From the NCBI RefSeq assembly GCF_019798055.1, contig NZ_JAHOPH010000001.1, forward strand, positions 1 through 64,000: a stretch of DNA of 64,000 nt, given 5' to 3'. Of this stretch, positions 10,601 through 54,440 are shown in pieces. Under the pieces are notes generated by a model, which did not search any database, was not told the origin of the DNA, and was given only the letters and a program-made list of their open reading frames with translations. Position 1 is the stretch's first letter. Every line of letters begins with the position of its first letter. This DNA is from Salsipaludibacter albus (GTDB taxonomy: Bacteria > Actinomycetota > Nitriliruptoria > Nitriliruptorales > Nitriliruptoraceae). Both the position numbers and the translations under genes were made by a program.

Positions 10601-12115
10601 ATGCCTGCCTTCCTCGCCGCCCTCCTGGTCTTCGTCTCGTCCGGTGCCGTGCTGGTCCTCGAGACGCTCGCCGGTCGACTCATGGCCCCCTACGTCGGGG
10701 TCACGCTGGAGTCGTTCACCGGCATCATCGGCACCATCCTCGCCGGCATCGCGGCCGGGTCCTGGCTCGGCGGGCGGCTGGCGGACCGCTACGACCCACG
10801 GGTCATGCTGGGACCCACCATGGTGCTGGGCGGCGCGTTGGGCCTGCTGTCCATCCCCGTGATCGACTACCTCGGATCGTCGATGCAGGGGGCGACCCCC
10901 TCGGTGATCGTGATCCTGACCTTCGCCGGCTTCTTCATCCCCTCGGCGATCCTGTCCGCGGTCACGCCCATGGTCGTGAAGCTGCAGCTGTCGGACCTGG
11001 CAGACACCGGTCGCGTGGTCGGATGGCTGTCCGCGGTCGGGACGGTCGGGGCACTGATGGGCACGTTCACGACCGGGTTCATCCTGGTCGCCGCCTGGCC
11101 GACCCGGCCGATCATCCGCTGGCTGGGCGGCCTGCTGGTGCTCGGCGGACTGGTGCTGTGGGTCTGGCTGCGGCGCGACGCCGACCCCGACGGTGACCTC
11201 ACCCGCCCCACCGCCGGGATGCTGGTCGTCCTGGTCGCGGCCGGCGCGTTGTCGTTCGCCGCCGCCCACCCGTGCGAGCAGGAGTCGGCCTACTTCTGTG
11301 CCCGCGTCGAGGTCGACCCCGAACGATCGACCGGACGGGTCCTGTGGCTGGACACGCTGCGTCACTCCTACGTCGACGTCGAGGACCCGACGCACCTGGA
11401 GTTCACCTACGCCCAGACGATGTCGGACGTGCTGGCGACGATCGCGCCCGAGGGCGAGGCGCTGGACGTCACCCACGTCGGCGGGGCCGGGATGAGCCTG
11501 CCGCGGTACCTGCGCGAGACCCGACCGGGCACGCAGTCGACCGTGCTCGAGCTCGACCCCCTGATGACCGAGATCGCGGTCGAGGAACTGGCGTGGGAGC
11601 CCGGTCCCGACGTCGAGGTGCTGCACGGCGACGCCCGGCTGCGCCTGGACGAGGTCCCGGAGGGATCCCAGGACCTGGTGATCGGGGATGCCTTCGGGGG
11701 CGTGTCGGTCCCGTGGCACCTGGCCACCGAGGAGTTCGTGACCGCCATCCACGACGTCCTCCGTCCCGGCGGGGTGTATGCCCTGAACATGATCGACTAC
11801 CAACCGCTGGGCTTCGCCCGTGCCGAGCTCGCGACCCTCGCGGCGGTGTTCGACCACGTCGCCGTCCTGGCCCCGCCCGAGCGGCTGACCGGTGAGTCGG
11901 GCGGCAACTTCATCCTGGTCGGGTCCGACGAGCCGCTCCCGGTCACCGAGATGCTCGCCCGCAACACCTCCCGGGGCGACGACGAGCAGGCGCTGTGGAC
12001 CGAGGGCTCGACCGTCGACGGCGTCACCCTGGAGGACTTCGTCGGGGACGCCCGGGTCCTGACCGACGACTTCGCCCCCGTCGACCAGCTCCTCACCCCC
12101 TACCCCACTCGCTGA
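10601..12115 (+). CDS. Membrane-anchored spermidine-synthase-like protein (fused MFS/spermidine synthase type)
   Basis: 504 aa. The N-terminal ~220 residues form about seven membrane helices in MFS style (LLVFVSSGAVLVLETLAGRLMAPYVG, GTILAGIAAGSWLGGRLADRYDP). The C-terminal ~250 residues are a Rossmann methyltransferase-like domain of the spermidine synthase family (THVGGAGMSLPRYLRE, VLELDPLMTEIA, GDARLRLDEVPEGSQDLVIGDAFGG). A periplasmic-type patch HPCEQESAYFC lies between them. Family members are called fused MFS/spermidine synthases; aminopropyl transfer is not established for them. ATG 10601 was chosen because the first helix begins at residue 3. Confidence 0.85.
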   Translation: MPAFLAALLVFVSSGAVLVLETLAGRLMAPYVGVTLESFTGIIGTILAGIAAGSWLGGRLADRYDPRVMLGPTMVLGGALGLLSIPVIDYLGSSMQGATPSVIVILTFAGFFIPSAILSAVTPMVVKLQLSDLADTGRVVGWLSAVGTVGALMGTFTTGFILVAAWPTRPIIRWLGGLLVLGGLVLWVWLRRDADPDGDLTRPTAGMLVVLVAAGALSFAAAHPCEQESAYFCARVEVDPERSTGRVLWLDTLRHSYVDVEDPTHLEFTYAQTMSDVLATIAPEGEALDVTHVGGAGMSLPRYLRETRPGTQSTVLELDPLMTEIAVEELAWEPGPDVEVLHGDARLRLDEVPEGSQDLVIGDAFGGVSVPWHLATEEFVTAIHDVLRPGGVYALNMIDYQPLGFARAELATLAAVFDHVAVLAPPERLTGESGGNFILVGSDEPLPVTEMLARNTSRGDDEQALWTEGSTVDGVTLEDFVGDARVLTDDFAPVDQLLTPYPTR

Positions 12116-12147
12116 CCCCTCCAGGCCCCGGCCGGTCCCACCAGGCC

Positions 12148-12199
12148 CGTCGAGTGTGCGCATCGAGGCCACGGACGGCCGGGAACAGCACACTCGACG
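12148..12199. repeat. 52-bp inverted-repeat element, copy A
   Basis: Arms CGTCGAGTGTGC (12148-12159) and GCACACTCGACG (12188-12199) flank 28 bases. Copies B (13423) and C (54389) have the same 12-bp arms and exactly the same total length, but a different 28-base centre. Copy A sits between the stops of two convergent genes, six bases after the DUF3037 stop. It could be a terminator, a REP-like element, or one end of the cassette at 12.2-13.4 kb. Confidence 0.85.
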
Positions 12200-12205
12200 C
12201 GGGGT

Positions 12206-12595
12206 TCAGGCCACCAGGTCGGTGAACAGGCGCTCGAGCTCGGCCAGGGGATCGTCGGTGAGGCCGGTGTGGATCGGGCTGGGCTGCACCATCGCGCTGC
12301 GCGGTGCGGCCAACCATCGGAACCTCGCACCGGGCGGCCCGGCCGCGGCCGGGATGGCCGGATCCTGCTCGCCCTCGGTGACTCGCCGCACGGCCTCCAG
12401 TGCCGCGGCGACCCCCGCCAGGTCGACGTCGGGGTCGAGCGCGCGGACCCGGTCGGGGTCGACGGCGAGTCTCCCGCCGAACCAGTCCGCGGCACCGCAG
12501 TGCAGGAGCACCCCGACGTTGACGAACTCGCCACGATCGACCCGGGGCACGACCCGCACGACCACGTACTCGTAGGGCACCGGCGTCCCGATCAT
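12206..12595 (-). CDS. DUF3037 family protein
   Basis: 129 aa. It matches the DUF3037 pattern: YEYVVVRVVPRVDRGEFVNVGVLLHC near the N-terminus, a helical middle (PDRVRALDPDVDLAGVAAALEAVRRV) and an SPIHTGLTDDPLAELERLFTDLV end. The biochemical function of the family is unknown. ATG 12595 overlaps the stop of the upstream HipA-like kinase gene (ATGA, 12595-12592), so the two are made together; DUF3037 genes commonly sit beside HipA-like kinase genes. The pair is bracketed by 52-bp repeats A and B. Confidence 0.85.
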   Translation of the reverse strand: MIGTPVPYEYVVVRVVPRVDRGEFVNVGVLLHCGAADWFGGRLAVDPDRVRALDPDVDLAGVAAALEAVRRVTEGEQDPAIPAAAGPPGARFRWLAAPRSAMVQPSPIHTGLTDDPLAELERLFTDLVA

Positions 12596-13383
12596 CGCCC
12601 GACCTCCCCCGTGGGCGCGCGGCTCGGTCGCCACGGCTCCCGCTCGGCGAGCCGCGCGGCCAGCACCTCGACGTGACGCGCGCGGGCACGCTCGACCTCG
12701 TCCGGACCCTCCAGGTCGTCCAGCCACGCGGTCGGGACGTCCGCCAGCACGTCGTGGAGCACCCCCGGGTCGACCCGCGTCGCCAGGGCCTGGTCCACGG
12801 CGGCGAGGTCGGCGTCGGCGAGGTCGGCGGTGAACGGGGCCAGGACGTGGTCGGACAGCTCGAGGCGTCGCGTCGCCGCCCCCGACGCGGGTGGCCACTG
12901 GTGTTGCCAGACCAGCGCAGCACCGTGGTCGATCAGCCACAGGTCGCCGTGCCACACCAGCAGGTTCGGGTTCCGCCACGTGCGATCCACGTTGACGGTC
13001 AACGCGTCCAACCACATGACCCGGGCAGCCTCCAGCGGGTCCACGTCGAACCCGGCGGGCTCGAACCCGACCGACCCGGGAAGCCAGTCCACACCGAGGT
13101 TGGTGCCGGCACTGGACACGAGCAGGTGCTGGATCTCGGGGTCGGGCTCGAGGCGGCCGATGCCCGGGTCGAGTTCGAGGGCGACCAGGTCCGGCACCCG
13201 CAGCCCCAGTCGGCGGGCGAGACCCGCCACGACGACCTCGGCCACCAGCGCGGCCGGTCCCTGGCCAGCCCCACGGAACTTGGCGACGTAGGTGCCGAGG
13301 TCGGTCGCCTCGACGATGCCGGGCAACGACCCGCCCTCGCGCAACGGCGTGGTGTACCGGGTGGCGTCGACGGTGGGGAGCAT
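12592..13383 (-). CDS. HipA-like kinase family protein
   Basis: 263 aa. Kinase-like elements of the HipA type are present: a candidate ATP-binding Lys in YVAKFRG (K35), a helical Glu near AEVVVAGLARRLG, a catalytic loop NVDRTWRNPNLL (D133, N138/N140) and a metal-binding DHG in LIDHGAAL (D152). It is far shorter than E. coli HipA (~440 aa), lacks the N-terminal subdomain that binds HipB, and no HipB-like antitoxin gene is adjacent. Instead it is coupled to a DUF3037 gene. A Ser/Thr kinase role is plausible; the target is unknown. Confidence 0.8.
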   Translation of the reverse strand: MLPTVDATRYTTPLREGGSLPGIVEATDLGTYVAKFRGAGQGPAALVAEVVVAGLARRLGLRVPDLVALELDPGIGRLEPDPEIQHLLVSSAGTNLGVDWLPGSVGFEPAGFDVDPLEAARVMWLDALTVNVDRTWRNPNLLVWHGDLWLIDHGAALVWQHQWPPASGAATRRLELSDHVLAPFTADLADADLAAVDQALATRVDPGVLHDVLADVPTAWLDDLEGPDEVERARARHVEVLAARLAEREPWRPSRAPTGEVGR

Positions 13384-13422
13384 GCCCGCGATCCTAGGGT
13401 GCACGCCACGTGGCCCCATCCC

Positions 13423-13474
13423 CGTCGAGTGTGCGGATCGCTGCAGCCCGCGGGAGCGGGACGCACACTCGACG
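13423..13474. repeat. 52-bp inverted-repeat element, copy B
   Basis: Arms CGTCGAGTGTGCG and CGCACACTCGACG (13 bp; the 12-bp core is shared with copies A and C). Its 28-base centre contains a second small hairpin, CCCGC-GGGA-GCGGG. It lies 36 bases past the stop of the copper-operon cytochrome gene and 39 bases before the HipA-like kinase start, so it separates the two transcription units. Confidence 0.85.
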
Positions 13475-13510
13475 GTCAGGCGGACGGCTCACTCGAGGAG
13501 GCCGGCGGGG

Positions 13511-13888
13511 TCACTCCATCAGGCCGGCGCGGCGCTGCTCGTCGCGGACGTGGGCGACGACGGCCGCGACCTCGTCGTCGGACAGGCCCCCGATGGCCGG
13601 CATCGGTCCGAAGTCCCAGTGGTGCGCCTGCACCCCGTTGGCGATGGCCGTCGCGAACACCACGTCGGGATGGTGGTCCGGCAGGTAGTACTCGTGCAGC
13701 AGGGGCGGACCGCGGTCGGTGCCACCCAGGTCCGGGCCGTGGCAGGTGGCGCAGTTCGCCGCGAACACGCGCGCACCGACGTCGTCGCGGTCGGCCGGTG
13801 CGGCGGCGTCCGTGCCACAGGCGGCGAGCACCAAGGTCGCCACGAGCGCCACCGGGCCGGCGACACGGGTGGTCGTCGCGCCCCTCAC
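13511..13888 (-). CDS. c-type cytochrome lipoprotein
   Basis: 125 aa from GTG 13888, which overlaps the copB stop by four bases. A lipoprotein signal (VALVATLVLAAC, Cys24 lipidated) is followed by one heme-binding CATCH (C46, C49, H50) and a distal Met ligand in GPMPAIGG (M96). This is a small mono-heme class I cytochrome held at the outer face of the membrane. As the last gene of a copper-export operon it may carry electrons or help copper oxidation outside the cell; a role in copper handling is inference from position only. Confidence 0.85.
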   Translation of the reverse strand: MRGATTTRVAGPVALVATLVLAACGTDAAAPADRDDVGARVFAANCATCHGPDLGGTDRGPPLLHEYYLPDHHPDVVFATAIANGVQAHHWDFGPMPAIGGLSDDEVAAVVAHVRDEQRRAGLME

Positions 13889-16047
13889 GCGGTGCCCGCC
13901 GGACTCGGACGCCGAGCGGCCGTCGCGGGCTCGCAATCGTCGGGACGGTGGTCACCCGCTGGGCGTTCGCCGTCGCCGGGTCCGCCGTCACCGGGTCCGG
14001 CCACCTCGTCCGGGTCGAGGTCGACCCGACGGAGCAGTTGCGCGTTGGCCGCGACGATGATCGTGGACAGGCTCATGAGGATCGCCCCGACCGCCGGGGG
14101 CAGCACGAACCTGATCGGGGCGAGCACCCCTGCGGCCAGCGGCACGGCGATCACGTTGTAGCCGGCTGCCCAGGCGAGGTTCTGCTGCATCTTGCGGTAC
14201 GAGGCGGCCGACAGGCGCCGCACGACCGCGACGTTGCGGGGGTCGTCGGAGGCCAGCACGATGTGTGCCGACGCGGCCGCCACGTCGGTGCCGGCCCCGA
14301 TCGCGAGCCCGACGTCGGCCCGGGCCAGCGCCGGGGCGTCGTTGACCCCGTCCCCGACCATCGCCACGGTGGCGCCATCGTCCTGGAGGTCGGCGACCAG
14401 GCGCTCCTTGTCCTCGGGCAGGACCTGGGCGTGGACCTCGTCGATGCCCAGCGCGTCGGCGACGTGGTCGGCGACCTGCGGTGCGTCGCCGGTGGCCATG
14501 ACCACGCGGATCCCGGCGTCGTGCAGGCCCGCGACGGCACTCGCCGACACGTCCCGGATCGTGTCCTCCAGCGCGAGGGCGGCGACCACCTGCTCGTCGA
14601 CGACCAGGTGCAGGACCGCCGCGCCGCGGTCCCGCCACCCGTCCGTGACCTCGCCCAGTTCGCGGGTCCCGGCGCTGTCCGCCAGCGACTCCTCGTCGAG
14701 CAGGGACGGCCCACCGACGGCGACGCGCCGGCCGTCGACCTGCGCGGCCACACCGCGGCCGGCGATGGACCGGAAGTCGCCGGCCTCCGGGACGGCGATC
14801 CCGGCGTCGGCGGCAGCCGCCACGATCGCGCGGGCCAGGGGGTGCTCGGAGTCCGACTCGACGGCCGCGGCCAGGGCGAGCGCCTCGTCGTCGTCCCACC
14901 CGTCGACCACGACCCGGTCCGTGACCCGGTGGTCGCCGGCGGTCAGCGTGCCGGTCTTGTCGAACAGGACGGTGTCGACCTGGCGCATCCGTTCGAGGGC
15001 CAGCCGGTCGCGGACCAGGATCCCGCGTCGGGCGGCCATGGCCGTGGACAACGACACCACCAAGGGGATGGCCAGTCCCAGCGCGTGGGGACACGCGATC
15101 ACCAGGACCGTCACCGTGCGGGTCACGGCCTGGTCCGGCTGGCCCAGCAGGAGCCACACCACGGCGGTCACGAGCGCGGCGATCGAGGCGTACCAGAACA
15201 GGGCCGCCGCGGCCCGGTCGGCCAGCACCTGGGTGCGCGACCGGGAGGTCTGGGCCTCCTGGACCATCGCCTGGATGCCGGCCAGCGTCGTGTCGTCACC
15301 GGTCGCGGTCACCTCCACCCGGACGGCGGAGCCGGCAGCGACCGACCCGGCCACCAGCTCGTCGCCGGGACCGTGGGCGACCGGCGCGGACTCGCCGGTC
15401 AGCATCGACTCGTCGAACTCCGCCTCGCCGTCGACGATCGTGCCGTCGGCCGGGACGGCCGCGCCGGGGCGGACCAGCACGACGTCACCGGCCGACAACT
15501 CCGACGCCGCGACCGTGCGGGTGCCGTCGTCGGTGACCAACTCGGCCTCGTCGGGCAGCAGCTCGGCGAGGCTGTCCAGCGCCGACTGGGCCTGCCCGAT
15601 CGCCTTCATCTCCTGCCAGTGGCCCAGCAGCATGATGACGATCAGCCCGGCGAGCTCCCACCAGAACTCGAGGTCGAGGACCCCGAACTCGCTGAGCCAC
15701 GACGCGACGAAGGCGACGGTGATGGCCATGCCGATCAGGGCCATCATCCCGGGCGAGCGATCCCGCAGCTCGCGCCAGCCGGAGGTCAGGAAGACCCGTC
15801 CCCCGTCCAGGAACAGGATCGTGCCGAGGACCGGCCCGACGGCATCGACCAGGACGTTGTCGGGCAGCTCGACCCCGAACCACATCCAGATCATCCGCGA
15901 CGTCAGGATGATGGGGATCGCGAGCCACAGCGAGCGCACGAACTGCCGACGGAACATCTCGGCGTGGTCGCCGTGGCCACCGCCGTGGCCACCGGCGTCG
16001 TCATGGTCGGCGTGCTCGTCATGGGAGTGGTGGTCGTTCGGAGTCAT
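13885..16047 (-). CDS. copB: Copper/silver-exporting P1B-type ATPase, CPH subtype
   Basis: 720 aa. A His/Asp-rich N-terminus ([23 protein letters not shown]) replaces a Cys-type metal domain. P-type ATPase hallmarks are present: TGES, the transmembrane CPH in [20 protein letters not shown] with the phosphorylated Asp, and [11 protein letters not shown] with a His-rich tail is the CopB subtype (P1B-3; Cu(II)/Ag export), different from the CPC enzyme upstream. ATG 16047 overlaps the copA stop (ATGA). Expression should follow the CsoR-controlled copZ promoter. Confidence 0.9.
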
Positions 16048-54388: not shown

Positions 54389-54440
54389 CGTCGAGTGTGC
54401 TGCGCGCGGCCACGTGCGGCCGCGAAGCGCACACTCGACG
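54389..54440. repeat. 52-bp inverted-repeat element, copy C
   Basis: Same 12-bp arms as copies A and B, extended to ACGTCGAGTGTGC/GCACACTCGACGT. The 28-base centre holds a second perfect stem CGCGGCC/GGCCGCG. It lies eight bases downstream of the kgd stop and 24 bases before the aminotransferase start. Confidence 0.85.

Follow-up and report, generated by a model that had tools for sequence, protein, structure and literature searches.

A family of REP-like palindromes behind genes in Salsipaludibacter albus and other Actinobacteria

Short extragenic palindromes that occur in tens to hundreds of copies, lie behind genes and occasionally form regular clusters have been described as REPs or BIMEs, and the GTAG REPs are associated with a RAYT (PMC2817692, PMC3733652). 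What copies REPs that have no RAYT is a recognised puzzle (PMC3733652). CGTC-tagged REPs also have no dedicated transposase and are located between co-directional and convergent genes. They carry an unpaired CGTC followed by a stem of 8-9 bp and a CCA tail, with a loop of 4-5 nt and a total length of 20-40 bp, and none of those reported came from Actinobacteria (PMC3733652). In M. tuberculosis, untagged REP-like repeats with 64 copies (PMC1525189) and the 72-bp Myt-1 with 75 copies (PMC2267715) have been reported, and the available portions of these two papers do not describe links to other Actinobacteria.

Here we analysed a palindromic element found in 64,000 nt of Salsipaludibacter albus (contig NZ_JAHOPH010000001.1, positions 1-64,000; the window). 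The element fits best among REP-like repeats in a broad sense, being multicopy, extragenic, palindromic and mostly located behind genes. It is neither a GTAG REP nor a CGTC REP, because the defining features of both were looked for and were absent. The 47 aligned copies of the genome start with CGTCGAGTGTGC or a near variant that is paired to the opposite arm, and no unpaired GTAG was found at the foot of the palindrome in these copies. In contrast to REPs and BIMEs with a RAYT, the elements are 49-61 bp in length, have paired outer arms and no GTAG tag, form direct rather than head-to-head pairs wherever pairs were observed, and occur in a genus without a RAYT. Linkage to a RAYT was rejected, since the Y1 transposase domain (PF01797) had no match in either genome of the genus (G000 and the sister species G001); there was also none in 18 of the 20 other carriers, and search controls such as E. 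coli were positive. The arms begin with CGTC, the tag of the CGTC-tagged REPs, by coincidence; here, unlike in those REPs, CGTC lies within a paired arm (with GACG) and the length is 52 bp. The likeness to the M. tuberculosis repeats is by description only, as far as the available portions of those papers go: they are actinobacterial, structured and extragenic, with similar copy number and size. In the literature, the arm sequence retrieved only human and eukaryotic primer-type papers among the matches listed, and the family was not described in the literature found on actinobacterial REPs or RAYTs.

Copies in the window and the HipA_2/DUF3037 pair

The original prediction was of three copies with 12-bp arms around a 28-nt centre. 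All three were recovered at exactly the predicted positions and with perfect arms, where none was expected by chance (100 shuffles):

Copy A, 12148-12199, no strand assigned: 52-bp element, exact pattern match with 0 expected; arms 12148-12159 and 12188-12199, inner stem GGCC 12167-12170/12177-12180.
DUF3037 protein, 12206-12595, minus strand: neighbouring gene outside the element, downstream in the coupled pair (PF11236, E 5.8e-39).
HipA_2-like kinase, 12592-13383, minus strand: neighbouring gene outside the element, upstream in the coupled pair (PF20613, E 3.5e-9).
Copy B, 13423-13474, no strand assigned: 52-bp element, exact pattern match; arms 13423-13434 and 13463-13474, inner stem about 13438-13442/13455-13459.
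Copy C, 54389-54440, no strand assigned: 52-bp element, exact pattern match; arms 54389-54400 and 54429-54440, inner stem GGCC 54408-54411/54418-54421.

Each copy is located downstream of a minus-strand stop, as had been claimed. Copy A is flanked by two convergent stops, with gene ends at 12115 (plus strand) and 12206 (minus strand), and lies 6 bp from DUF3037 and 32 bp from the convergent plus-strand gene. Copy B is placed between the HipA_2 start and the cytochrome c stop (13511), 36 bp off that stop, and copy C lies 8 bp past the kgd stop (54449). The predicted fold energies are -32.7 (A), -35.4 (B) and -40.5 kcal/mol (C). The centres, which had been regarded as unrelated, proved to share an imperfect inner palindrome design, with GGCC/GGCC in A and C and a sequence nearer TCCAG/CTGGA in B. 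No target-site duplication was visible at the three copies.

The arrangement of copies A and B around the coupled genes had suggested that they might delimit a HipA_2/DUF3037 cassette, either mobile or insulated. In the sister species, the plus-strand gene and P-ATPase 2 are only 100 bp apart, and the site contains neither the element nor DUF3037, HipA_2, cytochrome c or P-ATPase 1. The segment missing there is DUF3037-HipA_2-cytochrome c-P-ATPase 1 (window 12120-16047). Because the gap reaches P-ATPase 2, the segment present in S. albus begins near A and ends beyond B. The comparison with relatives thus agreed with a boundary in one respect, as the sister species lacks the cassette at this site and copy A is located at the left edge of the variable segment, but the segment does not stop at copy B and also takes in cytochrome c and P-ATPase 1. 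Copies also flank unrelated genes, and a class-level relative (G040) has the same coupled pair with other neighbours and no elements. It is therefore highly improbable that A and B bound such a cassette, and a composite cassette was likewise rejected because the segment ends do not match the element positions. Element pairs 0.7-1.4 kb apart were observed four times against about 1.1 expected (p=0.03), which suggests mild local clustering around one or two genes, with A/B as one case. The elements do not mark the HipA_2/DUF3037 pair; they are part of a widespread, poorly described kind of bacterial repeat, and for annotation a repeat pair around two genes is not evidence for a mobile cassette.

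Architecture and placement at gene ends

The expectation of a family of repeats was well founded. A covariance model counted about 50 copies genome-wide, and exact arms (GTCGAGTGTGC/GCACACTCGAC) were found in 21 copies in the 4.25-Mb genome, all with a spacing of 28 in a search that permitted 10-40; 47 copies were obtained at spacing 28 with up to 3 arm mismatches. Among these 47, the outer arms are near-invariant and the inner-stem pairs covary, with 10-12 double changes in each of the pairs 20-33, 21-32 and 23-30, and the arm-adjacent positions 13-15 and 38-40 are frequently unpaired. The centres form an imperfect inner palindrome that falls into several sequence classes.

Several other kinds of repeat were considered. 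Inverted pairs of DNA uptake sequences also have a constant short motif at gene ends, but here the motif is rarely single: exact arms are almost always paired in the genome, and a DNA-uptake-like single motif was rejected on this ground. An integron attC was set aside because the arms read CGTCGAGTGTGC and not the attC core GTTRRRY. CRISPR was rejected since regular pairs comprise only 2-3 units. With regard to MITE features, no transposase was found, in a comparison that covered only the commonest families among 125 neighbouring proteins, and no duplication at A-C. The 125 flanking proteins are mostly involved in ordinary metabolism and transport, and a linked gene next to the elements was rejected for this reason.

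In the two species of the genus, nearly all of 68 good copies are located outside predicted genes, with a median of 15 bp to the nearest stop codon, and four overlap a stop codon within the arm (overlap 10 bp). Gene ends were taken from a home-made codon-usage gene finder applied to fetched loci of about 3 kb, and individual distances may therefore be off. The setting was co-directional for 39 copies, convergent for 24, divergent for three and a contig end for two; in co-directional gaps the stop was closer than the start in 31 of 39 (p=0.0003). Copies in other Actinobacteria were convergent in 35 cases, co-directional in 27 and divergent in four. Convergent gaps were enriched in the genus (p=0.02) and elsewhere (p=5e-5), relative to a small background taken from the window. 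The host genes upstream of the copies are unrelated housekeeping genes.

The level of constraint and the terminator question

Selection at the transcript level would give more G.U pairs than A.C mismatches on the sense strand. In gene-oriented copies, 38 of each were counted, and the sense hairpin was the more stable one in 32 of 65 (p=0.46); RNA-level selection was rejected on these two results. No U-tract was found after 39 oriented copies with the hairpin present, where the next 10 nt contained 18% T, and 10 element-bearing loci had no match in Rfam. Because no RAYT, Rfam match or U-tract was found and the hairpin is as stable on the antisense as on the sense strand, the constraint on the element looks DNA-level. 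The stretch between stop and element is slightly C-rich (51% C and 26% G, compared with 42% C and 36% G after other genes), which might help Rho.

The original prediction had left a terminator role equally open, and that role has lost ground. A U-less bidirectional hairpin terminator, or an mRNA 3'-end stabiliser acting as RNA and reused at gene ends, would resemble intrinsic terminators in having a stable hairpin behind the stop codon. Copies do lie behind stops and between convergent genes, the hairpins of A, B and C reach about -31 to -40 kcal/mol, and some gaps contain no other possible terminator, such as the convergent gap L012, in which 1 bp is left on each side of the element, the sole candidate there. 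We nevertheless consider it unlikely that the element acts in this way. The U-tract is missing and the sense strand is not preferred; the arms are fixed in sequence and length, unlike RNA stems, which conserve pairing alone; and about 50 of roughly 4000 genes carry an element. Further evidence came from a convergent mycobacterial locus, the genes of which we take to be fadA-like and BI-1-like. In most species, the palindrome there adjoins a separate conserved intrinsic terminator, which speaks against a terminator role for the palindrome, and some species have the palindrome alone, as in L207 and L220, which agrees with such a role; others have the terminator alone.

The fadA/BI-1 locus also showed a second type of mycobacterial palindrome, TTGACTCTGCG ... 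AAAAGTGCGAGTAG ... CGCAGAGTCAA, the asymmetric loop of which is conserved (L207, L214, L215, L220, L224, L226, L227, L229 and L230). In L194 and L223, the palindrome CGAGCAG(A/T)CG(C/T)AAAAGCCCC with its complement is apparently another type of repeat or terminator.

Distribution across Actinobacteria and the proposed origin

In a scan of 84,980 species genomes, 70 stretches carried the 11-bp arms, and all titled records among them were actinobacterial, save one bin named only 'bacterium'. Variant elements are undercounted because the scan demanded exact arms. Named genomes had 1-38 copies, and the reversed-pattern control gave 0. The length depends on the lineage: Acidimicrobiia have 49, the genus has 50 (or 52 if the outer pair is counted), Williamsia has 55, and mycobacteria, rhodococci and some Micrococcales have 60-61, with 40 in two mycobacteria. 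A single viral-contig match to the arms was observed, on an IMG/VR contig (L184).

The sister species has about 28 copies with differing cores, and no convincing copies were found in other members of the family. Elements were missing in 39 of 40 relatives tested and in 395 of 397 phylum genomes, and the distribution is therefore patchy. Three of 28 element loci of the sister species match an element locus in S. albus, against about 0.34 expected by chance (p=0.005); sites are therefore partly inherited but mostly not, with high turnover and some retention. The inner stem class differs at two slots common to both species. At L110 (1074-1891) and L142 (131-1556), the same small gene is flanked in both species and the inner stem classes differ.

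Arm variants were species-specific over loci, GTGTGC in 9 of 9 in G415 and TCTGC-type arms in 3 of 3 in G492 and 2 of 2 in G481, with few loci in each case. Mycobacterial arm changes are mirrored in both arms at one locus and agree between the loci of a species.

Regular arrangements were also found. An Acidimicrobiia bin (G432, L164-L183) contains 37 near-identical 49-bp copies, in which most of the 49 bases hardly vary and the base at loop position 21 is close to random (1.94 bits); its direct pairs keep a period of 71-73 bp although their 22-24 nt spacers are unrelated. In mycobacteria, further half-sites occur every 20 bp, all facing the centre. In Mycobacterium gastri (L080, 4171-4560), a nested array surrounds one palindrome between convergent genes, with forward half-sites on the left (up to 7) and reverse half-sites on the right (at least 9) in 20-bp steps. 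In Williamsia (L041, L048, L088 and L097), an outer half-site GCTGACTGTGYGGAAA / TTTCCACACAGTCAGC lies beyond the arms and recurs at 30 bp in L041, and near-identical copies are 244-281 bp apart.

Such constrained spacing of pairs and half-sites, together with the DNA-level symmetry, the constant arms, the placement behind genes and the three loci retained between species, would also be in line with a functional site in the DNA that serves a host chromosome protein, as supercoiling sink, roadblock or domain site, and that is kept by selection and is not selfish. Very patchy occurrence in relatives and high site turnover are, however, unusual for a core chromosome function, and we judge this explanation rather improbable.

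The element is probably a dispersed non-coding REP-like DNA palindrome, without a RAYT, the arms of which are recognised by a putative protein. This reading builds on the directly observed family, its fixed length, stop-codon placement, patchiness and species-specific arms, and the lack of RNA-strand bias. Two inverted arms of 11-12 bp with near-fixed sequence flank a core of constant length, which is again an imperfect palindrome but free in sequence. A trans-acting DNA-binding protein other than a RAYT would recognise the arms and copy or maintain the elements. No trans-acting gene was found among the flanking genes, which are ordinary, or as a RAYT in the genus, and no insertion with an exact empty site was seen. 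New copies would persist chiefly after stop codons, where they are least harmful, and any benefit to the host as supercoiling sink, roadblock or terminator would be secondary. The three loci retained since the split of the sister species also fit a conserved function.

More tentatively, the elements may represent a phylum-wide actinobacterial family of transposase-less palindromes with one conserved putative reader, in which arms and reader change in step and copies extend into nested arrays of half-sites. Mycobacteria are among the carriers; their REP-like repeats had been counted before, and wider relatives are not described in the available portions of the papers (PMC1525189, PMC2267715). 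Because the arms are constant, the length is specific to the lineage, arm variants are homogenised within species and orthologous sites can be compared, a search for the reader protein is feasible.
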